Part shown: positions 9,755-50,664 of the stretch, piece after piece
How positions within the stretch are numbered: the stretch's first letter is position 1
Layout: each line of letters starts with the position of its first letter
From: Synergistaceae bacterium
Lineage (GTDB): Bacteria > Synergistota > Synergistia > Synergistales > Synergistaceae
Direction: 5' to 3'
NCBI GenBank assembly: GCA_031273805.1
Contig: JAISRE010000049.1
Location: 1-58,797, forward strand
Length of the DNA: 58,797 nt
Translations under genes and position numbers: made by a program
The notes under the pieces: generated by a model
Databases searched by the model: none
What the model was told of the DNA's origin: nothing
The model's input: the letters and a program-made list of their open reading frames with translations, nothing else

Positions 9755-10702
9755 ATGAGGGACGGACAGCGCTTCTGCGACTCTCTTCTCCACTTCGGAA
9801 AAATTCGGACTCACATCTGCAATAAGAAAAGACTCTTTCAGCGGATCCTATTTTCTATCATCTTACTCCTTCTGCTAATTACATTTGCTGAAACCTCTAT
9901 TGCCGATGTCAATTCTCCACAGGGAGCTCTTGATATTGCCGGCATAGTCCCAGGAAATTATTTATTTGCCGAGAAACGACAGGACATAATTGGTACAGCT
10001 GAGGCCGCCATCTCGTCAGTAAAGGGGATAGTCGGCCTGATGAAGCAGGTAAACGAGGTCAACGCCATGCTTTCTCCATCTGAAGATACCTCGCGGAGCT
10101 CTTCAAAAGAAGCGCTGGATCTCGTTTTGAAAGTTTCTGCGATAATTCCGGATTTTCCCGAAAATGAAAAAAACAAAACGCCGCTTACTCCCAAACCGGG
10201 CACAACAAAAACGGAGAAAGCCAAAACAGTGATAGCTCCGCCAATCAACAGTGTGCTCGACTCGAAAAATCTGCAATGGCCCACTGACGGCGTCATATAT
10301 TCGGCATTCAGGGCCACCAGGGGAAAGAAGCTGCACGGCGCCATAGATATCGTGACCAAGAAGGGGACGCCAATCCTGGCGGCAGCAGATGGAGTCGTCT
10401 CGGTAGTCGCCAACGGCGGCAAAAAATACAGCGGGTACGGCAAGATAATCATTATAGATCATGGCAAGGGAGTACATACCGTCTATGCTCACTGCGACAC
10501 TCAGATAGTCAAGATGGGTCAGAAGATTAAAAAGGGAACATTCATAGGCACCGTCGGCAGAACGGGCAGAGCTAGCACAGATCACGTTCATTTCGAAGTG
10601 AGAATCGCCGGCAAAAAGGTCGACCCGCTGAATTATCTGCCATCTCGTCCCGGAGTGGTGAAGACCGTCAACTGGCACTCAAAGAAAAAAAGCAGCAACT
10701 GA
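9755..10702 (+). CDS. Membrane-anchored or secreted M23 (LytM) peptidase
   Basis: A hydrophobic segment (ILFSIILLLLLITFAETSIA) near residues 30-50 directs export. The C-terminal 130 residues are a LytM/peptidase_M23 domain with the zinc motifs HGAIDI (H-x-x-x-D) and HVHFEV (H-x-H), typical of endopeptidases that cut peptidoglycan cross-bridges or of their regulators. Between them lies a Lys/Pro/Thr-rich linker. The ATG at 9755 follows AGGGGG at 7 bases; an ATG at 9725 gives a longer N terminus without a site. All active-site residues are present, so I expect an active hydrolase in cell wall remodelling. Confidence 0.88.
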   Translation: MRDGQRFCDSLLHFGKIRTHICNKKRLFQRILFSIILLLLLITFAETSIADVNSPQGALDIAGIVPGNYLFAEKRQDIIGTAEAAISSVKGIVGLMKQVNEVNAMLSPSEDTSRSSSKEALDLVLKVSAIIPDFPENEKNKTPLTPKPGTTKTEKAKTVIAPPINSVLDSKNLQWPTDGVIYSAFRATRGKKLHGAIDIVTKKGTPILAAADGVVSVVANGGKKYSGYGKIIIIDHGKGVHTVYAHCDTQIVKMGQKIKKGTFIGTVGRTGRASTDHVHFEVRIAGKKVDPLNYLPSRPGVVKTVNWHSKKKSSN

Positions 10703-10731
10703 TACTGCATATCCAAAATATGATAAATAGG

Positions 10732-10765
10732 GCCGAATCCGAGAATCACGGCGGATTCGGCTTTT
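10732..10765. terminator. Terminator between convergent LytM and gpt genes
   Basis: The inverted repeat GCCGAATCC/GGATTCGGC (10732-10740, 10753-10761) is followed by TTTTA on the plus strand. It lies in the 64-base gap between the two convergent genes. Confidence 0.8.
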
Positions 10766-10766
10766 A

Positions 10767-11276
10767 CTATTCACCCTCTATTCGATCAACGATAGGCGCC
10801 ACAAAAGATGTCGTTGCGTAAGAATCCCACGGGAACAGTATCCATGTGTCCTGACTGAATTCCGTTATAAATGTATCGACAATCGGGCGTCCCTCCGGCT
10901 TTGCGTACACAGTGGCAAAGTGTATGTCAGGAAACATATGCCGGACCTCGATTGCGGTTCTTCCAGTGTCGACAAGATCATCGATGATGAGCCACTTCGG
11001 ATCCATATCCGCCAGATCAGGACGTTTCAGGATGTCCACTGTATCGCTCTGGCTGCGCAGGGTGTAGCTCGATATACACACCGTATCGACAACCCTTATA
11101 TTAAGCTCTCTGGCTATAATAGCCGCTGGCGCCAACCCTCCCCGCGCAATGGCTATTATCCTCGACCAGTCATGTCTGACGTCAAGCAATTTCCACGCCA
11201 ACGCCCTGCAATCTTTTTGAAGATGGTCCCACGAAATTGAAAATGTCTTGTGATAACGCTCCTCAGCGTCTCCCAT
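10767..11276 (-). CDS. gpt: Xanthine-guanine phosphoribosyltransferase
   Basis: The sequence follows enterobacterial Gpt closely: ISWDHLQKDCRALAWKL, IIAIARGGLAPAA, VDTVCISSYT, the PRPP loop WLIIDDLVDTGRTA and FATVYAKPEGRPIVD, then QDTWILFPWD. It salvages xanthine and guanine with PRPP in the cytoplasm. The ATG at 11276 has GAGGGGGAC six bases upstream; seven extra codons to 11297 are not needed. It is divergent from a BMP-type binding protein that may bring in nucleosides or purines. Confidence 0.92.
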   Translation of the reverse strand: MGDAEERYHKTFSISWDHLQKDCRALAWKLLDVRHDWSRIIAIARGGLAPAAIIARELNIRVVDTVCISSYTLRSQSDTVDILKRPDLADMDPKWLIIDDLVDTGRTAIEVRHMFPDIHFATVYAKPEGRPIVDTFITEFSQDTWILFPWDSYATTSFVAPIVDRIEGE

Positions 11277-11459
11277 GATTGTCCCCCTCAAAGCCAATGG
11301 ATAAATTATGATGGCGCTATGTCGTGGAATTATACAATTTTATTAGACAGTGATACAGCACTGATTTAAGATATTCTGTTGCGCTTTTCCCATTCTCGTA
11401 TAGAATAAGTTAATCAATCCCAGTTAAGATAAAACCCAAATCCAAATTAAGGAGTGATT

Positions 11460-12557
11460 GTGTTGTTTTTTAAAAAATTCATCTCTTCCGTTCTCGCTAT
11501 GGTGTTTTGTGTTTTAGTTTCAAAAGAAGGAATTGCCTCAATCCAAGCGATGGCTCCATCTGAAATGAACCCCGGATTTGTCTATGTCGGTCCGGCCGCT
11601 GATGGCGGCTGGAGTTACATGCACGACATTGCTCGCAAGGAGATGGAGAAAGAATTCCCCGGTCTGAAGAGCAGCGTTGTGGAGTTGGTTCCGGAGGGAC
11701 CTGACGCGGAGCGTGTGATGGAAACGCTCATCCGCAACGGGTCCAGGATAATTTTCGCAACGTCATTTGGCTATATGGACCCGGTCCAAAATGTGGCCAA
11801 ACGTCACCCGGACGTGATCTTCATGCACTGCTCCGGCTATAAGCGCGCGGACAACGTGGGCGTGTACTTCGGTCGCGTTTACCAGCCCAGATACCTCTCC
11901 GGACTGGTAGCCGGAAAGATGACGAAGAGCGACGTAATAGGATATGTCGCTGCGTACCCCATACCAGAGGTCATCAGAGGACTTAACGCTTTCACGCTTG
12001 GAGTTCGCAAGGTGAATCCCAAGGCAGAGGTCAAGGTGGTATGGCTCTTCTCGTGGCAGGATCCCGCCAAGGAGAAGGAGGCTGTCAAGGCGCTTTACGA
12101 TATGAAGGCCGATGTTATAGGCATGCACGCCGATACAGGAGCGGCGCCCCAGTCTGCTGAGGAGCTCGGCATTTACGTTGTCGGCTACAGCAGCGACATG
12201 AGCGGATACGCCCCGACAAAACACCTGACTGCCCCGATCTGGAACTGGGGCATGGTTTACAGTTACGTGCTGAAACAAGCACAGGCCGGCACATGGAAGT
12301 CCGAGGAGATCTGGTGGGGATTGAAGGAGGGGCTTGTCGGCCTGGCGCCTTATGGCAAAGATGTTCCGGAGGACGTCAAACAGCTTGTGGAGAGCGAGCG
12401 CCAAAGAATAGTCTCGGGAGAATGGGACGTTTTTTACGGTCCCATTAAAGATCAGAAGGGTAATATAGTGGTCGCTGACGGCGCCAAGATGACTGATGAT
12501 GAAATGTTGTCACTCAACTGGTATGTCGAGGGCGTATCTGGAGAGATGCCGAAGTAA
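11460..12557 (+). CDS. BMP/PnrA-family substrate-binding protein, orphan
   Basis: After a signal sequence (FISSVLAMVFCVLVSKEGIAS) the protein shows the BMP (Med/PnrA-like) fold of nucleoside- or purine-binding proteins: FVYVGPAADGGWSYMHDIARK, IIFATSFGYMDPV, HPDVIFMHCSGY and NVGVYFGRVYQPRYLSGLVAG. No clear lipobox is seen, although a Cys lies inside the signal region. No ABC permease or ATPase gene adjoins it, so it must work with components encoded elsewhere. The GTG at 11460 lies 6 bases after AAGGAG. The divergent gpt gene makes a purine or nucleoside ligand plausible; that is inference. Confidence 0.82.
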   Translation: MLFFKKFISSVLAMVFCVLVSKEGIASIQAMAPSEMNPGFVYVGPAADGGWSYMHDIARKEMEKEFPGLKSSVVELVPEGPDAERVMETLIRNGSRIIFATSFGYMDPVQNVAKRHPDVIFMHCSGYKRADNVGVYFGRVYQPRYLSGLVAGKMTKSDVIGYVAAYPIPEVIRGLNAFTLGVRKVNPKAEVKVVWLFSWQDPAKEKEAVKALYDMKADVIGMHADTGAAPQSAEELGIYVVGYSSDMSGYAPTKHLTAPIWNWGMVYSYVLKQAQAGTWKSEEIWWGLKEGLVGLAPYGKDVPEDVKQLVESERQRIVSGEWDVFYGPIKDQKGNIVVADGAKMTDDEMLSLNWYVEGVSGEMPK

Positions 12558-38732: not shown

Positions 38733-39671
38733 TTGCTGGATATAAATATCAGGGAGGTTGACTTGCCCTCGTACAAGAAATTTTTCGGACAGTCCCTTCC
38801 CGCCATTTCCGAACACTACGCGCGTCGCAGCGCGGAAGAAAAACGAGGCTTTATACTGGGCGCTTTTTGTGGCGGACACGCGTGCGGAGTGCTCTCCGGC
38901 GGCGAGTTTGCGGACAGGGTTGGCTCCATCTCCCGTGTCGACACGGTCGGGGCGTACAGGCTTAGCGGAGTGTGCAAAGCGCTTGTGTCCAGCGCCTTGA
39001 ACCGTTTCAGGTCGCGCGGAGCTGAGTTCGCCGACACGAGTTGCGTCATCGGTTCCCCAGGCTGGGAAGCGATGGATTCATTCCTGCGAAAAACAGGGTT
39101 TGAAGAGACTGTATCCCAGACCTCGGTGCTCAATTACTGCAACTCCGAAACCGAAGCGGAACTCCGCAGATTCAGGGAGCATTTCGGCGACAGACTGACA
39201 GAGCGCCTTCTTCGCAGAGGATATCACATAACCTCGTTCAAGGACGCAACCGACGGAGACGTCGAGGCGCTGACGAAAGACGCGGAGAATATGACTGGAA
39301 TCCTGACGCGGTATCGGACGGACGGCAAAACGATAAGCCGCGCGAGCTTCATGGTTTATAAAAACGGAGAACCTGCGGCTTGCAGCGTGCTCTCGGAATT
39401 CGACGCGGGACGCACTACTGCTGTCGTTTCGGCATTGGCGTGCAGAGAGCGGTACAGGAAGACAGGCGCCGGATTGTGGCCCCTTTTCAGGAGCATCGAG
39501 GAGATATCGACCGGAAGAGGGTATGAATATAAAAAAGTAATCTACACCTTTCTGTCCGACAACACCGAGATGGCGAACCTGCAAAAATCTCCTCTCGTCC
39601 GCTTCAGCGGGCGGAGATCGTCGGTCACCCGTCTGTACCGGATGAAAATCACCGGAGGAAGTCTCCTGTGA
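38733..39671 (+). CDS. GNAT-family acetyltransferase-like protein, possibly two domains
   Basis: The 312-residue protein reads as one or two GNAT folds: an N-terminal half with GSISRVDTVGAYRLSGVCKALVSS, resembling the acetyl-CoA loop, and a C-terminal half with VVSALACRERYRKTGAGLWP, which has the motif A-like R-x-x-G-x-G/A pattern. The TTG start at 38733 follows AGGAGG at 7 bases. Its stop overlaps the next radical SAM gene (GTGA), so the two are coupled. In a RiPP locus it could acetylate the product or give self-protection; that is inference. Confidence 0.7.
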   Translation: MLDINIREVDLPSYKKFFGQSLPAISEHYARRSAEEKRGFILGAFCGGHACGVLSGGEFADRVGSISRVDTVGAYRLSGVCKALVSSALNRFRSRGAEFADTSCVIGSPGWEAMDSFLRKTGFEETVSQTSVLNYCNSETEAELRRFREHFGDRLTERLLRRGYHITSFKDATDGDVEALTKDAENMTGILTRYRTDGKTISRASFMVYKNGEPAACSVLSEFDAGRTTAVVSALACRERYRKTGAGLWPLFRSIEEISTGRGYEYKKVIYTFLSDNTEMANLQKSPLVRFSGRRSSVTRLYRMKITGGSLL

Positions 39672-41569
39672 TTTATCTCGTCGCAGCTCCATTTGCGATG
39701 ATCAGCTATCCGCATCTCGCCGCGCCTCTGTTGTCGTCGATATTGAAAGAGGGTGGGCTGCCGGTCAGGACTATCTATCTGAACTTTGACCTGGCGAAGA
39801 TGATGGGCGCCTTGAAATACGAAAACCTCGCCGGGAGCAGGGACCGGCAGAGCCTGAGGGAGTGGCTGTTCTCCGACGCCTTATGGGGGAAGGGGAAATC
39901 CGAAGAGGAGGACGCGGCGTTTTTGAACCTGGAGGCCGGCGACCTGGACGACGATGAGAAGGCTCGGATGCTCGATATGAAATACAGCGTCGTGCCGCGC
40001 TTCATGGCAGGCGTCATGGAGCGGTTCGAGACGATGCCCGACGTCAGCGTCGTCGGTTTTAGCTGCTTGTTCCAACTGCTCCCGCCGCTGGCGATCGGGC
40101 GCATGATCAAGGAAGCGCATCCGGCTGTGAAGCTGATCTACGGCGGTTCCGCCTTTCACGGGCAGATAGGCGAGGAACTCTTTGACAAGCTCGACTGGAT
40201 AGACGCGGTGTCTAACTCCGAGGCGGACGACGTGGCGCTGGAAGCGTTCACCAGAATATCGGAAGGAAGACCGATCGACGGGCTTCAGGGAATGATGTAC
40301 AGGGACAGGCGAAACGGGGCTGTATACAAAACCGAGGGCAGGCAGGTATCGCCCGAGGATATGAACAGGGCGCCGTACCCCGATTTCGACGATTACTTCG
40401 AATCGCTGCGCCAGAACTACGGAACAGACCTGGGCCCTCTCGCCGGAAAACTGCTGCCATTCGAGGGATCCAGAGGATGCTGGTGGTTCGAGCGAAGCCG
40501 GTGTAGATTCTGCGGCTTAAACGGAATCAGCAAGTCCTTCAGAGTCAAAGACCCGATCAAGGTGGCCGAAACGCTGAAACACTACAAAAACCGGTACGGC
40601 GTAAAGTATTTCGCGGCCTCCGATAACGTTATGCCCAATGAATTCCTGGACTCCTTTCTGCCGAGGCTCCGGGCGCTCAACCAACCGGGCGGGGCGGAAT
40701 CCGAACATCGGCCGTATAACGTATTCTACGAGGTGAAGACCACGTTTAGCCGTGAACAGGTAAAGCGCCTGGCCGAATCCGGCGTCGTCCTGGTTCAGGC
40801 CGGGATAGAGAGCCTGTCGGACAACCTGCTCAAGCAGATGAATAAAGGAGTCTCCGCAATTCAGAATATATTTTTCCTGAAGTGCGCAAGGCAGTATGGG
40901 TTATTCGTCATCTGGTACGTTCTGATGAAGATGTATGGCGAAACTCAGGAGGACTACGACGAGATGGCGGCACTGGCGCCCTATCTGGCGCATTTCTCCC
41001 CGCCGAGCATGTCCAGATCGTTTATTAAGTGCCATCGTTACAGCGCGTATCACAACGATTCGGAGCGCTATTTCGAGAAAATCGCGCCGGCGGCATTTTA
41101 TTCGGCGCTCTTCCCGGATTTTTTCGATCTGGACAAGCTTGCATATACGTTCGACGTGAAGTGGCGCGGCGTCCCGGACGCGACGGAGCGCTACGACGCT
41201 CTCTCCAAATGGTTGGAGCGATGGCGCGAACTCTGGGTTTCGAGGACAATCCCGGCGTTCTTCATGCGCGATACGGGAGACGGTTGTCTGTCGCTCTTCG
41301 ATTCGCGGGATGGGACGACAGAGACAAAGATAGACCTCGACAGCGACGAGAGCAAGATATACGGTATGCTGGACGATATAACCGCAATGAATTCCATTCT
41401 GGACAGGTCGTCGGAATTCTGTCCGCCGCACAGGACGGAGGTGATACTCGCTTCTTTCGTGGAATATGGATTTGCAGTGCGATTTGACAATCTCTTCCTC
41501 GGGCTTGCTAACAGGGAGGGATTTAAACAGTGGCCGCTGGACGAAAGGCTTCTTATGACGAACAGTTAA
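39668..41569 (+). CDS. RiPP maturation radical SAM protein, B12-binding type
   Basis: This 633-residue protein has an N-terminal Rossmann-like, cobalamin-binding type region (VSVVGFSCLFQLLPPLAIG and KLIYGGSAFHGQIGEEL) and a radical SAM core with EGSRGCWWFERSRCRFCGLNG, that is C-x7-C-x2-C. The RGCWW...CxFCGLNG signature is that of the RiPP maturation radical SAM C-methyltransferase family (rSAM type 1), whose known members accompany Nif11-type or nitrile-hydratase-type leader precursors. The C-terminal third is less conserved. It starts at a GTG overlapping the GNAT stop. It probably methylates a peptide made from the island. Confidence 0.85.
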   Translation: MIYLVAAPFAMISYPHLAAPLLSSILKEGGLPVRTIYLNFDLAKMMGALKYENLAGSRDRQSLREWLFSDALWGKGKSEEEDAAFLNLEAGDLDDDEKARMLDMKYSVVPRFMAGVMERFETMPDVSVVGFSCLFQLLPPLAIGRMIKEAHPAVKLIYGGSAFHGQIGEELFDKLDWIDAVSNSEADDVALEAFTRISEGRPIDGLQGMMYRDRRNGAVYKTEGRQVSPEDMNRAPYPDFDDYFESLRQNYGTDLGPLAGKLLPFEGSRGCWWFERSRCRFCGLNGISKSFRVKDPIKVAETLKHYKNRYGVKYFAASDNVMPNEFLDSFLPRLRALNQPGGAESEHRPYNVFYEVKTTFSREQVKRLAESGVVLVQAGIESLSDNLLKQMNKGVSAIQNIFFLKCARQYGLFVIWYVLMKMYGETQEDYDEMAALAPYLAHFSPPSMSRSFIKCHRYSAYHNDSERYFEKIAPAAFYSALFPDFFDLDKLAYTFDVKWRGVPDATERYDALSKWLERWRELWVSRTIPAFFMRDTGDGCLSLFDSRDGTTETKIDLDSDESKIYGMLDDITAMNSILDRSSEFCPPHRTEVILASFVEYGFAVRFDNLFLGLANREGFKQWPLDERLLMTNS

Positions 41570-41581
41570 GGGAGTGTTGTT

Positions 41582-43303
41582 ATGAGTTATAGTAATCGTC
41601 GTCACAATGAAATGAGAGTTCTGCTCTTTGCGGTGATGCTCGCGTTTCTGGCTGTGTTTGCGAATTCGCAGGCATCAATCGCCGATTCGGCTGCAGAACC
41701 GAAATTGGAACTTCTGCCTGTCAACCCCAAATATGTCGAATATTGGGAGAAGGTCCGGGCGGGAGAGCGCCCAAGCGGATTGGCGCCCAGTCCCATCGAC
41801 TGGTCCATACTGAAAAAAGAGGGGGCCGCCAGGAGGAGAGCGAGGGCAGCCGTGGACTTGCCGTCCGCCTACGACCTCGTAGCCGAGGGCGTGACGCCTC
41901 CCGTGCTGAATCAGCGCAACTGGGGAACATGCTGGTCGTTTGCCGCGATAGAGGCGATAGAGGCAGGCGTTATGTCTGCGGACAAAACCAACGGCACGAA
42001 AAACCACGTGGCGCTTTCGGAGCTGCATCTGGCCTATTACGCTTATGTGGATGAGGTCCCGGACAAACCCGCTTTCACCGGGAATCCAAACCCTTTTGAA
42101 AATGATGGCAAAACACCGCGCAATGTCATTTTCGACAACGGCGGAATCACCGAACTGGTGACCGCCCTTTTGTCCCGAGGCACAGGCCCTCTGGCAGAGG
42201 CGGTCGCTCCCTATCCAGACCACATCCCCGATGATCTCGGCGCGTGGGCCGCGTATGTACCCAACCCAGCGCCGCCCAAGGGCCCCGCTCAGTTTCGCCT
42301 GAAGAACGCCTACTATTTCTGGGATGATCCGGAGGATATCAAGTCTGCGCTGATGAAGTTCGGCGCTCTTTCATTCTCGTTCGGCTACTATGTCGGAATG
42401 GTCTCCGGAGACAGCATCTACACGCCGGATGCGAGAAACTCGAACCATAGGGTTCTGCTGGTCGGGTGGGACGACAATTACCCGAAAGAGGCGTTCGGAC
42501 CGTACCAGCCTGAAAACGACGGAGCGTGGAAATTACAGAACAGTTGGGGGCCGCGCGCTGGAACGGATGGTTTCTATTGGATATCTTACGAGGACGCGAC
42601 GCTATTCGGAGCAGAAGTCGGCAATCTGTACGCTCTTCCTGCCGCTTTTGAGATGATGCCCGCCGACGCCTACGACGATGACGGAATATACTTTCACGAT
42701 CCTCTGGGGACGAGCGGTTTTATCAGCGCCACCGACGCCGCGTACGACACCTTTACGGCCGCAAACGCTTTTACCGCGAGACGGGACGAAAAGATCACGT
42801 ACATCGGCTTCATGACGGGCCAGGATGAGCAGGACTGCGAGATACAGATCTACCGCGACATCCCGGACGGGAGCTCTCCCGACAAAGGTAAGGCCGTTTT
42901 CGCCGCTCCCCTGCCCTACCGTGTGACCGACGGCGGAGGATATGTCTCCGTAAAACTGGACGACCCGGTTCCAATCAGGAAGGGCGAGCGCTTTGCCGTG
43001 GCCGTGACGTTCAAGCGACCGGTCGGCGACAGGCGCCTGGCAGTCCCTATCGAGCAGATGCTGGAGGGACTTTGGGAAAAGGCCTCCATTAACCAAATGG
43101 AGAGTTATTACCTGTGGGGAAACGAGTGGCGAGACATCTACTATGAGACAGACCCGAAGGGCAATTTCTGCGTGAAGGCGTTCACCGCGCCGTCGCCCGC
43201 TCCGGACGATGGCGGCGGCTGCGACTCCTTTTCCGTCGGCCTATTCGGAATTGCCGGAGTAGCGTTGCTCATGTTCGGAAGGAAGAACAAAAAAAGCTCA
43301 TAA
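41582..43303 (+). CDS. Secreted C1-family (papain-like) peptidase with lectin-like domain and CTERM-like signal
   Basis: An exported cysteine protease of 573 residues. A signal sequence (VLLFAVMLAFLAVFANSQAS) precedes a pro-region and a papain-like domain with Gln-Asn loop NQRNWGTCWSFAAIEA (Cys117), SNHRVLLVGWDDNY (His289) and LQNSWGPRAGTDGFYWISY (Asn320). A lectin-like beta domain follows (ITYIGFMTGQDEQDCEIQIY) and then a GGGC patch, a hydrophobic run and basic end, a Synergist-CTERM-like signal. In a RiPP island it is the only candidate leader protease here, but its export makes a general or defensive role equally possible. It begins 12 bases after the radical SAM gene. Confidence 0.85.
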   Translation: MSYSNRRHNEMRVLLFAVMLAFLAVFANSQASIADSAAEPKLELLPVNPKYVEYWEKVRAGERPSGLAPSPIDWSILKKEGAARRRARAAVDLPSAYDLVAEGVTPPVLNQRNWGTCWSFAAIEAIEAGVMSADKTNGTKNHVALSELHLAYYAYVDEVPDKPAFTGNPNPFENDGKTPRNVIFDNGGITELVTALLSRGTGPLAEAVAPYPDHIPDDLGAWAAYVPNPAPPKGPAQFRLKNAYYFWDDPEDIKSALMKFGALSFSFGYYVGMVSGDSIYTPDARNSNHRVLLVGWDDNYPKEAFGPYQPENDGAWKLQNSWGPRAGTDGFYWISYEDATLFGAEVGNLYALPAAFEMMPADAYDDDGIYFHDPLGTSGFISATDAAYDTFTAANAFTARRDEKITYIGFMTGQDEQDCEIQIYRDIPDGSSPDKGKAVFAAPLPYRVTDGGGYVSVKLDDPVPIRKGERFAVAVTFKRPVGDRRLAVPIEQMLEGLWEKASINQMESYYLWGNEWRDIYYETDPKGNFCVKAFTAPSPAPDDGGGCDSFSVGLFGIAGVALLMFGRKNKKSS

Positions 43304-43374: not shown

Positions 43375-43439
43375 GGAAGTCTGAAGGGCGGAGGGTCTAG
43401 CGCTCACAGATGGCAAAGCGCCGTGAGGAGGTTTTTACA

Positions 43440-43679
43440 ATGGGAATCGACGAATTTGTGGAAAAGATCAGGAGCGACGAGGCTTTTGCCAAGAAGTGCG
43501 AGGCTCTCGCCAGCCTTGACGATGTACTGGCTCAGGCGAAGGCGGACGGCTGCTCCGAGACCAAAGAGGAAGCCAGGGAGTATCTCGGGGCGCACGGCAA
43601 GCTGAACGACGGGGACCTTGCGGATGTAGCCAGGGGGATAGGCCCGGCGATTCAAGTCGTTGAGGGAAAGAAAAAATAG
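43440..43679 (+). CDS. Nif11-like leader peptide protein, possible RiPP precursor without GG site
   Basis: The 79-residue product shows the Nif11-type leader pattern: MGIDEFVEKIRSDEAFAKKC with the usual F-x-x-K-x-x-x-D segment and a DDVLAQAKADGCS helix. Where the other precursors have an acidic helix and VAGG it reads LNDGDLADVARG, followed by a 13-residue tail (IGPAIQVVEGKKK) with no Cys, Ser or Thr. It is therefore either a precursor with an unusual core, or a leader-like protein that works in trans. GAGGAGG lies 9 bases before the ATG. It stands between the peptidase and a SPASM enzyme. Confidence 0.65.
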   Translation: MGIDEFVEKIRSDEAFAKKCEALASLDDVLAQAKADGCSETKEEAREYLGAHGKLNDGDLADVARGIGPAIQVVEGKKK

Positions 43680-43979
43680 GAAGAATCGTTAAACGCGATA
43701 TTGCCAATCCGCAGTCAATGACGACGAGTGAGGTGACGCGATAAGTGACGAGCAGCGGTTTCGCGCTTATAGCGATGATCCGCGTCGCGGACTCCCCCCG
43801 ATGGAAAGCGGACGGCTCCCCGGGGCTCCCCTGCACGGCTATCTGGAAAAGATTTCCGAGGTGATGCAGGGTGCGCGCCCGCTCAACGCGGATCCAGTGC
43901 GCGATCACGGCGCCGGATCTGAGGATGGCCGGGTATATCAGGGAAAAGTTCGCGGCGAACGGATGAGGATATTAATATT
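43680..43979 (+). other. Intergenic stretch with an open frame lacking a good start
   Basis: This 300-base gap holds a frame open from 43732 to 43983. The upstream part has no start codon; the only ATG is at 43801 without a ribosome site. The translated text (for example PRRGLPPMESGRLPGAPLHG) has coding-like composition and its TGA overlaps the ATG of the radical SAM gene at 43980. I read it as either a remnant or an unusual small gene of 60 residues. Confidence 0.3.
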
Positions 43980-45383
43980 ATGATGCATCTCCAAGTGTTA
44001 TGGCTCGATGATGGGCAGTGTGTCCTTTTTAACGTTCCCGACAAACGCATCTCGGGAAGGGCGCCCGCGTTCGTCGGGAGAGTTGCGGAAAAAATCGTGG
44101 ACGGAAAAGACTTAACGGCGGCGATTGCCGAGGAGTCAGTCGATCCCGACATGCGCCGCAGGATCGTCGATCTGCTGACGTACATCGGTGGAGAACGTTC
44201 TTCGGTACGCACTGAGCCTTTCGGAAGAAACGAAAAGCGATTCGGCAATGTATTGGCCCTGTGCCCTTCCACCAAATGTAACTTGCGCTGCATGTACTGT
44301 TCCGGCAATGCCGGAAACTGCTCGGACACGCTGATGGATTGGGATTTGGCAAAAACCGCGATAGATTATTACTTCGCCCACGCTAGAGAGAAAGACGCGT
44401 ATGTGCTGCAGTTTCACGGAGGAGGCGAGCCGATGCTCAACATGGGCGTAATCAAAAAATCAATAGATTACGCGCGCTCCATCGCGGAGGGAAAAGGAGG
44501 ACGGCTCACGACGAAAATATCCACAAACGGTTATTTTTCACCCGATACCGCGCGGTGGGCAGCTGACACGTTTAACGACGTAAGCCTGTCACTGGACGGG
44601 CCTCCGGACATTCACGACAGACAGAGGCCGACGATGAACGGCAAGGGCAGTTATGACGTTGCTTGCCGCACGCTGCGCATACTGGAGGAAAAGGGCGTGC
44701 ATCTGCGCATCAACACGGTGATAACCAATTATGGAATAGATCGCATGGAGGAGATAATCGGGCACATACGATCCGTCACGCGCACGACGGAACTCAGGCT
44801 TTTGCCGATGGAGTATTGCGGACGCTGCGCGGAGTCCGGCGCTTCCCCACTGGATTTTGAGAGGTACGCCCTCAATCTCGAAGAACTTTTGCCGGCGGCG
44901 CTGTCTTTGGACTTCGATCTTCTGGATGTACTCGAAAACGCTGATTATTATACCGACGGACATTATTGCCGGGCCTGCGGATATGTGATGTGCGTAGCGC
45001 CGCACGGGAGAATAAGCACATGCATCGAGGTCATGGACGAGGCGTCAGGTGTGGATGATCTGCTGATCGGTCGCTATGACGGAGAAAAAATCGTCATCGA
45101 CTGGAACGCTGTTTTCAGGCTTCGGGACAGGACGTATCATAACCTGGAACCCTGCAAGAAATGCGCTTTCCGGAGCAATTGTTCAGGAAACTGTCTCGTG
45201 CGGGCGGGACGCAAAAACGGGACTGTCATGTCCGTCGATCCCGACGCCTGCGCGATGACGAAAAAAGCTCTCACAAAATATTTCGCCAATGTGGCTGATT
45301 CGCTTGAAGACTTCGTGGGAACAGAGTGTTTTCCATTCACTCCTGGCTACATGCTCGGCGGGGCTTCTCCGGACGGTCGTTGA
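43980..45383 (+). CDS. SPASM-domain radical SAM peptide maturase (island enzyme 2)
   Basis: Residues about 1-85 are a leader-recognition-like N-terminal part; the radical SAM motif STKCNLRCMYC (Cys 100, 104, 107) follows, and a SPASM domain with CRACGYVMCVAPHGRISTC and CKKCAFRSNCSGNCLVRAGR gives auxiliary-cluster Cys. SPASM enzymes of this kind make thioether, C-C or other crosslinks in RiPP cores. GAGG lies about 11 bases before the ATG. The Nif11-type precursor with the GG site starts 83 bases downstream, so that peptide is the likely substrate (inference). Confidence 0.82.
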   Translation: MMHLQVLWLDDGQCVLFNVPDKRISGRAPAFVGRVAEKIVDGKDLTAAIAEESVDPDMRRRIVDLLTYIGGERSSVRTEPFGRNEKRFGNVLALCPSTKCNLRCMYCSGNAGNCSDTLMDWDLAKTAIDYYFAHAREKDAYVLQFHGGGEPMLNMGVIKKSIDYARSIAEGKGGRLTTKISTNGYFSPDTARWAADTFNDVSLSLDGPPDIHDRQRPTMNGKGSYDVACRTLRILEEKGVHLRINTVITNYGIDRMEEIIGHIRSVTRTTELRLLPMEYCGRCAESGASPLDFERYALNLEELLPAALSLDFDLLDVLENADYYTDGHYCRACGYVMCVAPHGRISTCIEVMDEASGVDDLLIGRYDGEKIVIDWNAVFRLRDRTYHNLEPCKKCAFRSNCSGNCLVRAGRKNGTVMSVDPDACAMTKKALTKYFANVADSLEDFVGTECFPFTPGYMLGGASPDGR

Positions 45384-45409
45384 AAAGTCAATCACGGATA
45401 TGATATTAT
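45380..45409 (+). promoter_or_regulatory. Candidate promoter of the Nif11-type precursor
   Basis: TTGAAA (45380-45385), 18 bases, TATTAT (45404-45409) stand 58 bases before the precursor ATG. The -35 box overlaps the stop of the preceding radical SAM gene. Confidence 0.5.
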
Positions 45410-45466
45410 AAAGTAACTTGATGTACGTATTATGATAGACAACACAATAAGGAGAGTGTGGAAACA

Positions 45467-45727
45467 ATGAGCAAGCTGGCAGACTTTTACAAGAAGGCGG
45501 AAAGCGACGACGCGCTCAAGGAGGCGTTGAAAAAGGCAAACATTAAGGCCAAAGAGGAGAATATCACCGCGTTGATCAAGGTAGCTGGTGAATTCGGCAT
45601 TTCTCTGGATCGCAATGACTTCGGCGATCTCGACGAGGACGATCTCAAAGCGGTGGCGGGCGGATGGTACGGCGAGCCTCGATGCAGCGGGACATGTAAG
45701 GAGGCTGGACAACAATATTATCGCTGA
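45467..45727 (+). CDS. Nif11-type RiPP precursor with GG site and two-Cys core
   Basis: The 86-residue peptide has a Nif11 leader (MSKLADFYKKAESDDALKEA, then KEENITALIKVAGEFGISL), an acidic helix (LDEDDLKAVAGG, Gly-Gly at 65-66) and a 20-residue core beginning WYGEP and containing Cys 73 and Cys 77 (RCSGTC). The core ends in QQYYR. AAGGAGAG precedes the ATG at 45467 by 10 bases, which favours it over the GTG at 45458. SPASM radical SAM genes flank it on both sides. I infer a modified peptide with one crosslink or small ring. Confidence 0.8.
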   Translation: MSKLADFYKKAESDDALKEALKKANIKAKEENITALIKVAGEFGISLDRNDFGDLDEDDLKAVAGGWYGEPRCSGTCKEAGQQYYR

Positions 45728-45923
45728 TGTTTCGGCGACTCTCTACGCGAATCTGACGCTTGACGAGTACTTCCATGTGCTTAAATCGCTTACCCGACTT
45801 CCTGTCGGTCGCAGATTCGTTCCGCGCTACGCGCCGAGAACAACGCGTTCGCCGAAACATCGGCACTTGAGCCGAGCTAATAGTCATAACAATATTTGAC
45901 GCCGAAACGCGAAGGGAGAAATA

Positions 45924-46145
45924 ATGGGCAGACTGGGAGATTTTTATCGCAAAGCCTCGAGCGACGAGAATTTACGGATAGCTTTGGACGAAGCGAATCA
46001 GGATGCGAAGGAAAATAATATAACCGCGCTGATTGAAGTCGCGCGTAATTTCGGAGTGGAACTTGACCACAGTGACTTTGATCTGCGCCTTGGCGAGGAC
46101 GCGGAGCGCGCGTTAAAACGAGGCTGGTCTCGCCGGGAATTCTGA
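45924..46145 (+). CDS. Degenerate Nif11-type peptide lacking GG site and core
   Basis: The 73-residue product is clearly a paralogue of the precursor at 45467: MGRLGDFYRKASSDENLRIA, KENNITALIEVARNFGVELD. Where that peptide has AVAGGWYGEP, this one reads LKRGWSRREF and ends, with no Gly-Gly and no Cys. It could be a leader-only decoy, an activator of the radical SAM enzyme in trans, or a decayed gene. GCGAAGGGAG precedes its ATG. The next radical SAM gene starts 7 bases after it. Confidence 0.65.
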   Translation: MGRLGDFYRKASSDENLRIALDEANQDAKENNITALIEVARNFGVELDHSDFDLRLGEDAERALKRGWSRREF

Positions 46146-46152
46146 GGCCGGT

Positions 46153-47616
46153 TTGTACGTTCAGTTAGGCGAAGAATATATGCTGCGGGGATGGAAAGAC
46201 CTTCCCTTCGTGATGGTCAACTCCACGACGGGGGAGGAGACGGTTCTTCCCGGCGAAGGTTTGACGGTACTATTGGAGGGCGAGGTGGACAGCGCTCTGG
46301 TATTGCTCACCCCTTCCGAAAGGCTTTTTCTCGACTCGCTTGTCGGCAGCGGGCGCTGTAGTTTTCTCGATCGACCGAGCCCTCTTCCAAACAGAAAAAA
46401 GTACAGGAGGAGCGAGGGCGTCCGCATAACCGAAGTCTGCTGGTCAATCACCGGAAAGTGCAATCTGCGGTGCAGACATTGTTATATGGGCGCCCCGGAG
46501 CAGAGATACAAGGACCTCGAGACCGAAGACTGCCTGGGGCTGATCCGACAGATGGCGGCAGCCAACGTCACCAGAGTTTCGCTCACCGGAGGGGAACCTT
46601 TGCTTCGCCCTGATTTTTGGCGTTTGGTCGACGCTGCGGAGGACGAGGGAATAAGAGTATCAAGTGTCCTCACCAACGGTGTCTTGCTGGACGAAGCTTT
46701 CTTCATGAACATGAGAAGAAGGAATTTGTCCTTTGGCATCCTCATAAGCTATGACGGCCTGGGCTGCCATGACTGGATGCGCGGAGTCGACGGGACCGAG
46801 AAAAAAGCCATAGAGGCGATAAAACTGGCCCGAAGCTTCGGGCACAATGTGACCGTCAATATGATGTTGCACAACGATAATTTAGAAACTCTGATCCGGA
46901 CATACGAACTGTTGATTGATCTGGGTATACAGGCAATGCGGGTATCGACCGTCGACGACGCTGGGTGCTGGCGAAAATACGGCAGCGGGCCGATCCCGCC
47001 GGAGCGTTTATTTGAGGAGTATTTGAAACTGGTTCGGCGCTTTGTGGAGGACGGTCACCCGTGTGCGTTGCAGTTGAGCAAGTTTTATCACGGTTCGCCG
47101 ACGGACGGGGATAAAATTATTTGCGTGCTTGGAAACGGAGAAAAAAACTTAGATTCGTCGGCATGTCCTTATATGCGCGAACATCCCTGTCTTATGCCCA
47201 ACGGGCGCTTGCTGCCGTGTCCGAGTTTTTCGGATACGCATGTGGAACAAAATATGCCGAATCTGCTCGAAGTTCCTCTTGCAAGCATATACAGCAATCC
47301 GGAGGGATATTTTTGGGAGGTCGCAGATACGAAACTCGCGGATGTTGTGGAGCGCGACGGAGAGTGCGTTGACTGCCCTCACAAATTCGAGTGCGGAGGG
47401 GGAGCGTGCCGAGCCGGCGCCGCGATTCAATGCGGAGATTTCAGGGGAAGCGACAAACTCGTGTGCGGATTCTTCAAGGATGGATGGAGACGACGACTGG
47501 AATCCGTAATCTATGGCTGCGCCGAGGGTTTTAACAGGATATTGGGAAAAGGCCTCCATGAACCCAAGGGAGAGTTATTACCTGTGGAGAAACGAGTGGC
47601 GAGACATCTACTATGA
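46153..47616 (+). CDS. SPASM-type radical SAM enzyme (island enzyme 3), C terminus replaced
   Basis: A leader-binding-like N terminus (YMLRGWKDLPFVMVNSTTG) is followed by the radical SAM motif ITGKCNLRCRHCYMG (Cys 103, 107, 110), GGEPLLRPDFW and a SPASM region: CLMPNGRLLPCPSF, CVDCPHKFECGGGACRAGA, CGFF. It resembles heme d1/PqqE-like peptide-modifying enzymes. The frame runs on past codon 460 into DNA homologous to the C1 peptidase gene but read in a different phase (after about 47540), so the last 25 residues or so are not native. The SPASM core is complete, so it may still be active. The TTG at 46153 is needed to include the conserved YMLRGW part; an ATG at 46180 is an alternative. Confidence 0.8.
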   Translation: MYVQLGEEYMLRGWKDLPFVMVNSTTGEETVLPGEGLTVLLEGEVDSALVLLTPSERLFLDSLVGSGRCSFLDRPSPLPNRKKYRRSEGVRITEVCWSITGKCNLRCRHCYMGAPEQRYKDLETEDCLGLIRQMAAANVTRVSLTGGEPLLRPDFWRLVDAAEDEGIRVSSVLTNGVLLDEAFFMNMRRRNLSFGILISYDGLGCHDWMRGVDGTEKKAIEAIKLARSFGHNVTVNMMLHNDNLETLIRTYELLIDLGIQAMRVSTVDDAGCWRKYGSGPIPPERLFEEYLKLVRRFVEDGHPCALQLSKFYHGSPTDGDKIICVLGNGEKNLDSSACPYMREHPCLMPNGRLLPCPSFSDTHVEQNMPNLLEVPLASIYSNPEGYFWEVADTKLADVVERDGECVDCPHKFECGGGACRAGAAIQCGDFRGSDKLVCGFFKDGWRRRLESVIYGCAEGFNRILGKGLHEPKGELLPVEKRVARHLL

Positions 47617-47782
47617 GACGGACCCGAAGGGCAACTTCTGCGTCAAGGCGTTTACCGCGCCGTCACCCGCGCCGGACAACGGAAGCGGCGGCGGGGGCGG
47701 CGGATGCTCCGTTTCATTAGGCTTGTTCGGATTTGCCGGAGTAGTGCTCCTTATACTAGGGAGTAAGAACAAAAGTTTATAA
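47540..47782 (+). pseudogene. 3' fragment of a second C1 peptidase gene with CTERM-like end
   Basis: From about 47540 the DNA follows the 3' part of the peptidase gene (43073-43303) closely: YWEKASMNPRESYYLWRNEW, YYETDPKGNFCVKAFTAPS, then a Gly-rich patch, hydrophobic run (LGLFGFAGVVLLIL) and a short basic end. The rest of the protease is missing. The fragment overlaps the end of the radical SAM gene in another frame. It is the product of a duplication and deletion; only the sorting-signal end is left. Confidence 0.8.
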
Positions 47783-47885: not shown

Positions 47886-48533
47886 ATGAAGTTCGTCAAT
47901 TTAATCGGCAAGTCGCAGTCGGCAGTGTACGCGGAATTTTTCACGGAACCTGAGTTCAAGGGCAACGCTAAGAAGCTCCACAGAGGAGAATACGGCGAGA
48001 ACGCGGTCGGCGTCTCCAGAGTGAAGTCGGTCAAGGTCTCGGACTTCGCGACGGTCACGTTTTACGAGACGCCGGACGGCCCCGGAAAGAGCGCCGCTTT
48101 CACCTCCGACGCGGCGGAAGTCAAACTCGGCTTCACCCCAAGTTTCGTAACGGTGGAGAGCCACGTGAAGGGCTGGAAGAACGGCGTGTTGTCGGCGACT
48201 CTCACAACTGGGGAATACGAGGTCTCCGAGATCAAGAAGTTCGACAGGGTATCGGTCCCGAGGGGGACATACCTAGTTTTTCTGGGGTCCGTGTCCGACC
48301 CCAACTCCGTGCACCTTTTCGAGAACGAGGACTACACGGTTGACGCCAGGATAGACGGCTACAAGAGAGTCGCGATCTTTCCGCTCGACAATGACGACGT
48401 AAGGCTGAATTTTAAACTTAGCTCCTCTCTCTCCGACGACGATCTTCTCGCGGTGGCCGGAGGAGTGTGCCTCAAGAACACCTGCGGGGCTAAGGCTTGC
48501 GCCGCAGACAGTCCTTGCGGCATCAATGCCTGA
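47886..48533 (+). CDS. Putative RiPP precursor 1: beta/gamma-crystallin-like leader with Cys-rich core
   Basis: Residues about 10-92 read as two beta/gamma-crystallin Greek-key units: VYAEFFTEPEFKGNAKKLHR with GEY and, after a VKSVKV strand, TVTFYETPDGPGKSAAFTSD. Residues about 100-168 look like a second, more diverged pair (LTTGEYEVSEIKKFDRVSVP, then GTYLVFLGS). The calcium N/D-N/D-x-x-S/T-S motifs are not conserved. An acidic helix and junction LSDDDLLAVAGG (Gly-Gly 192-193) then precede a 22-residue core with Cys at 195, 200, 205 and 211 (CLKNTCGAKACAAD). GGAGG lies 9 bases before the ATG. The same junction as in the Nif11-type peptide supports precursor status; the leader is unusually large. 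The function is an inference. Confidence 0.75.
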   Translation: MKFVNLIGKSQSAVYAEFFTEPEFKGNAKKLHRGEYGENAVGVSRVKSVKVSDFATVTFYETPDGPGKSAAFTSDAAEVKLGFTPSFVTVESHVKGWKNGVLSATLTTGEYEVSEIKKFDRVSVPRGTYLVFLGSVSDPNSVHLFENEDYTVDARIDGYKRVAIFPLDNDDVRLNFKLSSSLSDDDLLAVAGGVCLKNTCGAKACAADSPCGINA

Positions 48534-48586
48534 ACGATGCGATCTGCGGCATTGACGGATCGCATTGACGAAAGGAGGGATAACAC

Positions 48587-49297
48587 GTGAAGTTCGTCAT
48601 ATTGAACGACGGCGGCAAGATGTCGATTCTCGCGAATTTTTTCGAGAAACCTGATTACGAGGGAGATGGGCAGGATATGCCGCTCGGTCGTTACAACAGG
48701 GAGCAGTTTCACATCAAGACGATAGGTTCCGTCAAACTCAAGGAGAACGTGACGCTAGCCGTGTACGAAAACCCTGACAGGAGCGGCAGAGTGCTCTTAT
48801 TGAGCGAGGATGTCCCCGATCTGTCCAAATCACTCCCGTTCACGCCGTCCGTCTTCACTCTCGCGCACAGCGTCGGCGCATATGAGGGCGAGGTCAAAAA
48901 GGACAACCTGGTACCCGGCGTTTACAACGCGGCGTCGCTCAGGGGGTTTGGCAGGCTGCGGATACCGGAGGAGACAAGGGTTACATTCTGGTCGGGAGAG
49001 GGGAACGACCCCGGCGAGTCGGGGCGTTCGTTCGAAAAGGGAGACCTCGTTTTGGATGAAGGCATGCGCGCGTACGACAAGTTCGCCATCATCCCGATCC
49101 TCTCCGGCGAAGCCGCGCGGCAGGCCGGAGAATCCGGCGAGCTCTCTGACGAAGAACTGCTTTCCGTGGCCGGAGGAGAATGTAAAGCTATGGCGTGTGC
49201 CGCTGCGGCGTGCGCCGCCGATATGTGCTCCGTTGATGCGTGCGCGGCAAAGGCGTGCGCGGTGAACGCATTTCCGTTTCTTCCGATAAGCCCTTGA
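48587..49297 (+). CDS. Putative RiPP precursor 2: beta/gamma-crystallin-like leader with six Cys at five-residue intervals
   Basis: A paralogue of the preceding gene (both begin MKFV). Greek-key units are clearest at residues 13-38 (SILANFFEKPDYEGDGQDMP) and 54-80 (NVTLAVYENPDRSGRVLLLS), followed by a more diverged pair (to about 170). The junction ELSDEELLSVAGG (Gly-Gly 196-197) precedes a 39-residue core with Cys 199, 204, 209, 214, 219 and 224, each followed by four mostly Ala residues (for example CAADM, CSVDA), and a Cys-free tail (AFPFLPISP). The GTG start has AAAGGAGGG 7 bases upstream. The stop overlaps the TTG of the SPASM enzyme downstream. Confidence 0.78.
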   Translation: MKFVILNDGGKMSILANFFEKPDYEGDGQDMPLGRYNREQFHIKTIGSVKLKENVTLAVYENPDRSGRVLLLSEDVPDLSKSLPFTPSVFTLAHSVGAYEGEVKKDNLVPGVYNAASLRGFGRLRIPEETRVTFWSGEGNDPGESGRSFEKGDLVLDEGMRAYDKFAIIPILSGEAARQAGESGELSDEELLSVAGGECKAMACAAAACAADMCSVDACAAKACAVNAFPFLPISP

Positions 49298-50664
49298 GAC
49301 TGTCCGCGTACAGACCGTCCCGTTATAATTTTTTCGTTCCGCTCAAGGACGATTTCACCCTTGCATATAACAGCCTGGGAAATTCTCTCGCGGTATGGGA
49401 CGAATACGACAGAAAAGTATACGATATCCTGTGCTGCGGCGGCGATCGGGAGACGGCGACGGAGACCGTCGGCAACGACAGGTATCTCGATTCGATCCTG
49501 AAAGATCTCAAAAAAGGATCGTTTATCATCGAAAAAAAGACCGACGAGAGGGAGAAGATCGACGAGGCGGTCAAATTGCTGCGCTTCGGCAGAGAACAAC
49601 TGACGCTCACCATCGCCCCGACGCTCAAATGCAACTTCGGCTGCGACTACTGTTATCAAGGCAATGATAGGACCGGGCGCATGACCGATTCGGTGCGCGA
49701 CGCCCTGGTCGGTTTCGTGGAGCGCGCCTCGCATGACATCAAGTCGCTCGGGGTCGCGTGGTACGGCGGCGAGCCTCTGCTCGAGCCGGACATCGTGGAG
49801 CGTCTGTCCGAAAGATTCATCGCGTTATGCGGCGAACGGAACATCTCGTACAGCGCTATGATGGTGACAAACGGCTTCCTTCTGACGAAGGAGACCTCGG
49901 ACATCTTCAAGAGGTGCAGGATCTCGTCAGTCCAGGTGACGCTTGACGGAGACAGACCGGTTCACGACACGAGGAGAATATTGCTGGGCGGAGGGCCGAC
50001 CTTCGATAGGATAATCGGAAACCTGGCCGATGTGACGTCCTCCAACGAGGAATTGCACATATCCATAAGGGTGAACGTAGACCGGAGGAACTGCGATTCC
50101 ATAGAAGCGTTGATCGACCGCATGTGCGCCGAGGGGCTAAACAAGCGGAAAAACCTGTCTATGTATTTCGCGCCTGTGGATGTCTGTTCGAGCGAGTGTC
50201 TCAAAATAGCGGACAACGTGATGCCGATGCAGGAATACGCAGCTTTGGAGGCCGAACTGGCGAGGCTCGCGACCGAGCGCGGCATGTACTTCCCCTCCAT
50301 GCCGAACCGGGCGTTCAGCCTGTGCGCGGCCGTCAAGCCGAACGGCTTCGTCATTCTGCCGAACGGGGACATCCATAAATGCTGGAATACCGTGTCGAAC
50401 TCATCTCAAAGCCTGTGCCGCATCGACGAAATCGACTGCGTTTGGGACTCTCCGCTTCAGCGGGAGTGGCTGGAGCACGAACTGTTCAGTATGCCTGAGT
50501 GCGATGACTGCGAAGCTCTGGCAAACTGCGCCGGAGGGTGCGCGAACAAGGCCATGATGGGATACGCAAATCCTTGTATTAGCCTTAAGTACAACATGGA
50601 GAAAATGCTCGCGCTGTACGCGGTCTCAAAGGGAGCGATAAAGCCGGAGGACGTGCTCGTATAA
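49294..50664 (+). CDS. SPASM-domain radical SAM maturase of the crystallin-leader cassette (island enzyme 4)
   Basis: The N terminus (RLSAYRPSRYNFFVPL, then LAYNSLGNSLAVWDEYD) is typical for SPASM enzymes of the Cys-rich peptide thioether group. The radical SAM motif is TLKCNFGCDYCYQG (Cys 113, 117, 120 from this start), WYGGEPLLEPDI follows, and the SPASM Cys occur in SLCAAVKPNGFVILPNGDI with HKCW and in CDDCEALANCAGGCANK. The start is taken as the TTG at 49294, inside the stop codon of precursor 2 (TTGA), which matches the conserved N terminus; an upstream in-frame ATG overlaps the precursor by 58 bases. I infer that it modifies both crystallin-leader precursors. Confidence 0.85.
   Translation: MRLSAYRPSRYNFFVPLKDDFTLAYNSLGNSLAVWDEYDRKVYDILCCGGDRETATETVGNDRYLDSILKDLKKGSFIIEKKTDEREKIDEAVKLLRFGREQLTLTIAPTLKCNFGCDYCYQGNDRTGRMTDSVRDALVGFVERASHDIKSLGVAWYGGEPLLEPDIVERLSERFIALCGERNISYSAMMVTNGFLLTKETSDIFKRCRISSVQVTLDGDRPVHDTRRILLGGGPTFDRIIGNLADVTSSNEELHISIRVNVDRRNCDSIEALIDRMCAEGLNKRKNLSMYFAPVDVCSSECLKIADNVMPMQEYAALEAELARLATERGMYFPSMPNRAFSLCAAVKPNGFVILPNGDIHKCWNTVSNSSQSLCRIDEIDCVWDSPLQREWLEHELFSMPECDDCEALANCAGGCANKAMMGYANPCISLKYNMEKMLALYAVSKGAIKPEDVLV

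Follow-up and report, generated by a model that had tools for sequence, protein, structure and literature searches.

A predicted beta/gamma-crystallin-fold leader in a probable two-precursor radical-SAM RiPP system of a gut Synergistota bacterium

Among ribosomally synthesized and post-translationally modified peptides (RiPPs), proteusins (NHLP) have a long leader in which a rigid borrowed fold of nitrile-hydratase alpha-like helices is followed by a flexible LxxxxL segment at -12 to -7, a double-glycine (GG) cleavage site, NHLM export, and B12-dependent radical S-adenosylmethionine (SAM) methyltransferases. Enzyme docking falls to the disordered LXXXXL segment, and the rigid leader region can be dispensed with (PMC10858898). 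Ranthipeptides and sactipeptides (CteB, PapB, and SkfB) combine a Cys-rich core with a SPASM radical SAM enzyme carrying a RiPP recognition element (RRE), which binds the leader as a beta-strand (PMC7470986). Known CefA proteins (NF038108; e.g., Methylomagnum ishizawai WP_221067166.1) are 515–910 aa long, with crystallin repeats, ricin, tectonin, or fascin-like domains, and 27–42 Cys in a tail of C-G-A-x-A pentads. They have neither a GG site nor an NHLM exporter nearby, and the enzyme families TIGR04463 and TIGR03975 stand side by side with them. The Greek-key double-domain fold of beta/gamma-crystallins is found in the microbial proteins Protein S, clostrillin, and hahellin.

Here, we describe two tandem genes, A and B, on contig JAISRE010000049.1 of a gut Synergistota bacterium (Synergistaceae bacterium, GCA_031273805.1), all 58,797 nucleotides of which form the window. 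A and B probably encode the two precursors of a four-module radical-SAM RiPP system, composed of an N-terminal strand, a double crystallin domain, a GG segment, and a Cys-rich core. Since the gene set recurs in three phyla, the crystallin-fold leader is a real kind of folded RiPP leader. The initial annotation, made from the sequence alone, had known of no RiPP class with such a leader. None is described in the open-access literature that was searched. The precursor genes and their GG sites are as follows.

47886..48533, + strand: precursor A, 215 aa, ATG start; strand MKFVN, double beta/gamma-crystallin domain (about residues 12–166), GG segment LSDDDLLAVAGG, then core VCLKNTCGAKACAADSPCGINA
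48429..48464, + strand: GG site of A, LSDDDLLAVAGG, with L at -12 and -7 and V at -4 (placed from the translation of 47886–48533)
48587..49297, + strand: precursor B, 236 aa, GTG start; strand MKFVI, double beta/gamma-crystallin domain, GG segment LSDEELLSVAGG, core ECKAMACAAAACAADMCSVDACAAKACAVNAFPFLPISP (Cys at every fifth residue), follower FPFLPISP
49142..49177, + strand: GG site of B, LSDEELLSVAGG (placed from the translation of 48587–49297)

The initial annotation read 47886–49297 as two tandem paralogues ending in LxxVAGG and a short Cys-rich core. Both open reading frames (ORFs) lie at these coordinates, each behind a good Shine–Dalgarno sequence, and their products are 33% identical. 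The classical double-glycine motif LSxEELxxVAGG and the Cys core are exact in both proteins. In the tail of B, six of six Cys share one five-residue register (0 of 20,000 shuffles); in that of A, three of four do, which is not significant taken alone (8% of shuffles). The -PxxP-type follower is present in B only, and the NF038108 CefA model matches B with E=3.3e-5 and 23.7 bits. With their homologues, A and B make up a sample of 12 short precursors from seven genomes, mostly metagenome assemblies. In the 11 complete ones, LSxEELxxV(A/V)(G/A)G is always present, the leader is free of Cys in nine, and the core has 4–6 Cys, except for that of genome G096, which has 2. The best-conserved core motif is C-x4-C-x2-D, and in the CGAxA pentad position 4 is nearly always Ala while position 3 is variable.

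The first part of both proteins had been read as a Greek-key crystallin pattern, and a search with PF00030 had been proposed as a check. As single sequences, the window proteins match PF00030 and PF08964 only marginally (E 0.04–0.25, below the gathering score), and five of seven family members match PF08964 (best E 1e-3), again all below the gathering score. Searched against the PDB, a profile built from seven family sequences recovers both Myxococcus Protein S (1prr; E=2.8e-11) and clostrillin (E=3e-5). The AlphaFold2 model has a predicted local distance difference test score (pLDDT) of about 75–94 for residues 11–165 and <50 for residues 1–11 and the tail. In Foldseek, the comparison of folds that the initial annotation had proposed, the top matches of this model are all beta/gamma-crystallins. 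GammaD is matched with E=7e-6, the N-domain of Protein S superposes with TM 0.76 and rmsd 2.2 Å, and two-domain crystallins are aligned over about 175 columns. The first crystallin domain is thus secure by sequence and structure. A second, diverged crystallin pair up to about residue 170 had also been claimed. It is seen in the predicted structure (about residues 95–166), but the match of domain 1 to domain 2 in sequence is weak (hhalign probability 15, E 0.002), and therefore the second domain is secure in the structural model only.

The calcium motif (N/D)(N/D)xx(S/T)S is typical of microbial beta/gamma-crystallins, although not universal. It is present in none of the 11 complete short precursors; three of five long, CefA-like forms have it. 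Unlike the microbial crystallins with which they share fold and detectable homology, A and B also carry a C-terminal extension of GG site and Cys core. NHLP and Nif11 leader models match none of the five precursors scanned (A, B, and three others). Other Synergistota encode stand-alone, predicted secreted crystallin proteins (L018 8208–8738, − strand; L009/L019), and the L018 protein retains a canonical calcium motif, NDRLSS. Matches in five genomes were not counted as relatives: those in G098 and G114 are ordinary predicted secreted crystallin proteins, those in G067 and G078 cover the GG region only, and that in G596 is an unrelated crystallin protein.

A first scan of genome contigs with both precursors as queries gave no confirmed relative, and tblastn of B against plasmids and phages gave no match. 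A family-profile search of 188 genomes of the phylum recovered, besides the window, A and B in Synergistales bacterium MS502-76 (G034) and Synergistaceae bacterium Po218_bin80 (G162, of the window's family), which are the nearest relatives of the cluster, and A alone at a contig end in G096. In G095, the maturase gene is followed directly by an A-type gene of which the contig, ending there, contains only the start. Scanning genome contigs for the maturase added a Planctomycetota metagenome-assembled genome (L033) and Candidatus Alectryocaccobium of the Bacillota (L038), each with A and B. Nearly all homologues, in all three phyla, adjoin a TIGR04463-like SPASM enzyme and a TIGR03975 B12 methyltransferase. 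The genome search suggested with the initial annotation thus finds both the Cys tail and the radical SAM linkage conserved, and the annotation's reading of A and B as radical-SAM RiPP precursors with a crystallin leader is supported.

In the precursor tree, A and B form two clades (support 99/97), each spanning Synergistota, Planctomycetota, and Bacillota, indicating that the duplication is old and that the pair travels together. A and B are therefore ancient paralogues retained as a pair. The short-form maturases form a single clade as well (support 100/100). The Planctomycetota copy (L033 8876–12039) nests among Synergistota in the maturase and A trees, which suggests a recent transfer or a mis-binned contig. 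The G096 precursor (L017 9647–10255) has just two Cys (GCLKQQDCPTDD). Its gene borders the end of the contig, and the assembly gave no TIGR04463 match; this locus is possibly decaying or incomplete.

Directly behind B lies the gene of the putative modifying enzyme.

49294..50664, + strand: SPASM radical SAM maturase, TIGR04463-like (426 bits, cut-off 525), with an N-terminal RRE at residues 24 to about 95 of the frame opening at 49240

The ORF is listed from 49240, but the likelier start is a TTG at 49294. This start overlaps the stop of B, suggesting that translation of the maturase is coupled to that of B. The N-terminus of the maturase folds as an RRE in the AlphaFold2 model (pLDDT 86); Foldseek matches it to the TbiB1–leader complex, TigE, SuiB, and CteB, and the CteB profile match of the RRE–SPASM enzyme has E=1e-27. 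A and B resemble ranthipeptide and sactipeptide systems in pairing an RRE–SPASM radical SAM enzyme with a Cys-rich core, and differ from them in having a folded leader, two precursors, and an additional B12 enzyme.

The precursors of short and long forms share an N-terminal motif, M-[KRQD]-[FYVA]-[VIL]-[NVI]. As listed, 21 of 22 precursors have it, and all 22 do when G034 A is read from a GTG behind a Shine–Dalgarno sequence, from which it starts MQFIN; the set includes two precursors that lack a folded domain altogether. Of the 439 ORFs in the loci, eight match, all of them precursors. The motif classes were set after the first 21 sequences had been viewed, so the sole true test is Methylomagnum CefA, retrieved after the motif had been noted, which starts MQYLV. 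In the model, the motif falls in a disordered stretch that is not part of the crystallin fold. Given a strand common to all precursors and an RRE on the enzyme, we infer that the strand docks the RRE of the SPASM enzyme. By analogy with proteusins, the crystallin domain would then be dispensable for docking, a folded passenger between strand and core.

The initial annotation had instead proposed the crystallin unit as the docking site for the SPASM enzyme; such a recognition leader might alternatively serve the B12 enzyme. Every short precursor keeps the crystallin domain, and the matching maturases are one clade, so co-evolution is conceivable; in addition, residues 1–11 are unstructured in the model, which is compatible with a composite docking site. 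However, what an RRE fold binds is a linear strand, proteusins can dispense with the folded part (PMC10858898), and related TIGR04463-type enzymes adjoin precursors with ricin/tectonin, bulb-lectin-like (L044), or no folded domain (L039 and L042), the element common to all 22 being the five-residue strand motif. Docking by the crystallin itself is therefore unlikely. It may still scaffold or protect the peptide, as the initial annotation had alternatively suggested, or act as a spacer.

Two further genes extend the cluster of the window to 38733–41569.

38733..39671, + strand: GNAT-family acetyltransferase-like protein (PF00583, E=4e-8)
39668..41569, + strand: B12-binding radical SAM C-methyltransferase, TIGR03975 (rSAM_ocin_1; 504.6 bits, cut-off 281.85)

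Family members scored reach 476–505 bits against TIGR03975, above its curated cut-off. The B12 gene directly adjoins the precursors or the SPASM gene in L015, L016, L030, L033, and L038, as well as in long-form loci, and a GNAT gene lies upstream of it, in conserved order, in G034 (L015) and the Planctomycetota locus. The gene order is maturase, GNAT, B12 enzyme, A, B in G034 and B12 enzyme end, maturase, A, B in G162 (L016). In the window, by comparison, a papain-like peptidase gene and a Nif11 cassette (43410–47616) part the GNAT and B12 genes from A, B, and the maturase. This arrangement invites the reading that the Cys tails bind metal or form ordinary disulfides, while the radical SAM genes serve the Nif11 peptides of the region, since three Nif11-type ORFs and two further radical SAM genes stand between the B12 gene and A. 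We consider it very improbable: in L015, L016, L033, and L038, the radical SAM genes and crystallin precursors adjoin with no Nif11 ORF between them, and NCBI annotation pairs the same tail in Methylomagnum ishizawai (CefA) with a TIGR04463 maturase and a TIGR03975 C-methyltransferase.

The Planctomycetota and Bacillota loci also contain an export system. Their operon is complete and comprises HlyD, TIGR03796, TIGR03797, TIGR03975, the TIGR04463-like maturase, A, and B. The C39 peptidase–ABC transporter TIGR03796 scores 967 bits in L033 and 938 bits in L038 (cut-off 853); L033 alone has an HlyD that reaches the curated model, and L038 has a TIGR03797 score narrowly below the cut-off and a B12 gene named from N-terminal similarity, not by a model scan. 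An NHLM-type exporter, recognised from the C39 domain together with the order of genes, is encoded elsewhere in the genome of the window (contig C111) and in G034 and G095.

The long relatives present a different picture. Their maturases are true TIGR04463 members (561–606 bits), and the proteins score 53–91 bits against NF038108. They adjoin the maturase gene in Methanothrix, Thiothrix, a Polyangia, an Ardenticatenaceae, and a Clostridia genome, and several adjoin a B12 enzyme, assigned by N-terminal similarity. Their crystallin domains are above the Pfam cut-off, often accompanied by ricin, tectonin, or fascin-like domains, and their tails have the same C-G-A-x-A pentad as A and B and end in, e.g., IPIIPGI, matching FPFLPISP of B. 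The GG site is present in none of five long precursors versus 11 of 11 short ones, and no NHLM exporter is among the genes read near long forms. Precursors with Cys at every fifth residue and without any folded domain occur in L039 (Actinomadura; frame 10459–11853, MRFLVTP...) and L042 (a gammaproteobacterium; frame 11320–11934, MKYIVSP...), where the start runs almost directly into the Cys repeats. The short tails are versions, reduced in length, of the CefA-type tail, and the A/B system is related to CefA and TIGR04463 yet outside both curated cut-offs. Further TIGR04463 loci (Chloroflexota, Gammaproteobacteria, Myxococcota, and Cyanobacteria) are rare, and the short flanks examined around the low-scoring ones contain no ORF with Cys at every fifth residue.

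Some loci have additional features. The Methanothrix protein (L037 2116–4728) is archaeal, combines ricin-like, crystallin, and fascin-like domains with 42 tail Cys in five-residue register, and adjoins a TIGR04463 maturase and two B12-radical-SAM-like genes. In L044 (7334–15283), L045, and L040 (Bacteroidota and Hormoscilla), a TPR protein and a glycosyltransferase-like gene stand beside the maturase, the Bacteroidota loci adding an oxidase-like gene; in L044, the tail protein matches the putidacin-L1 lectin-bacteriocin model and contains a bulb-lectin-like domain.

The long forms raise the question of whether the crystallin domain of A and B also stays attached, the tail being a modified, cross-linked extension of a one-molecule surface or stress protein. 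For the long lectin/crystallin proteins this is likely, given their domains, their many tail Cys, and their lack of GG site and nearby exporter. For A and B it seems a poor prospect, since the short precursors invariably have the double-glycine site, a C39 NHLM exporter lies within the operon at both non-Synergistota loci, and the calcium motif is absent from all short forms.

We therefore favour the four-module system, which would operate in the manner of a proteusin but with another fold. It builds on domain content, conservation, gene linkage, the RRE, and the transporter family; its predicted parts are that the N-terminal strand docks the enzyme, that the crystallin can be dispensed with, that the core receives thioether bridges and methyl groups, and that A and B act jointly. 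In module 1, the strand MKFVN/MKFVI would be bound by the RRE of the SPASM enzyme. Module 2, the double crystallin domain with its calcium site lost, would be a folded spacer or solubility domain and not the docking site. Module 3, the flexible LSxEELxxVAGG segment, would serve the C39 exporter and perhaps the second enzyme. Module 4 is the Cys-every-fifth core of CGAxA pentads, with the follower in B. There, the SPASM enzyme would probably make thioether bridges from Cys to Ala or a neighbouring residue, Cys–Ala being the simplest guess because position 4 of the pentad is nearly always Ala and position 3 variable. The B12 enzyme would C-methylate core carbons. Finally, the NHLM C39 transporter would cut after GG, leave the crystallin leader inside the cell, and export a pair of small peptides.

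Several observations weigh against this model. The short tails fall below the CefA cut-off of 30 bits (22.2–28.4 bits for B forms, 12.8 bits for A), and the short-clade maturases, at 396–426 bits over their full length, fall below the TIGR04463 cut-off. The 12 short precursors are few. In the window, the B12 methyltransferase gene is 6 kb away, with the Nif11 cassette and its two other radical SAM genes between, and no transporter gene is near the precursors, so that the exporter is inferred from another contig. The two-Cys precursor of G096 comes from an assembly with no detectable TIGR04463 maturase, its gene being at a contig end. Lastly, the LSxEEL segment adjoining the core may dock the enzyme instead of the N-terminal strand: A and B have L at -12 and -7, the proteusin LXXXXL spacing, inside the classical double-glycine motif.

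The genes between the B12 enzyme and A have features of their own. The Nif11-type cassette contains three Nif11-like ORFs (43410, 45458, and 45924) and two SPASM/radical SAM genes (43980 and 46153). The 3′ end of the papain-like peptidase gene (41582–43303) encodes a lectin-like domain and a predicted Synergist-CTERM anchor, and 47513–47782, on the other side of the cassette, is an 83% nucleotide copy of this end. The cassette thus sits between duplicated ends, and 47513–47782 looks like a duplication scar. In G162, a subtilisin-like protease with a Big_2 domain and a predicted Synergist-CTERM (L016 3768–5612) is encoded directly 3′ of precursor B. As the window cluster also has a papain-like protease with a like C-terminus, a surface protease may be linked to the crystallin-led peptides. 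An Rfam search over 41–51 kb gave no match, and a scan for sigma-70 promoters and terminators gave nothing exceeding shuffles.

A broader reading, which we advance tentatively and with less than even confidence, is that the radical-SAM-modified tail is an accessory that folded proteins can take on, the strand recruiting the RRE–SPASM enzyme whatever domain follows. If so, recruitment would be independent of whether a crystallin, ricin, tectonin, bulb lectin, or no domain is present. The cross-linked tail of 27–42 Cys would stay on a sugar-binding protein, from an archaeon to Myxococcota, whereas the short branch would have turned the same fold into a throw-away leader, with a GG site and without the calcium site.

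Structured RiPP leaders are very few, and A and B add to them an all-beta, autonomously folding domain. For genome mining, precursors of >200 aa, which length filters discard, are worth including. The system also predicts that the N-terminal strand could act as a portable tag through which folded proteins receive a Cys-rich tail modified by the enzyme. The family provides matched natural variants around one enzyme family, with a crystallin, another domain, or none, and with or without the GG site. These variants make the question raised by proteusins testable, namely whether folded leaders guide the enzyme or are spacers fused to a linear docking motif.
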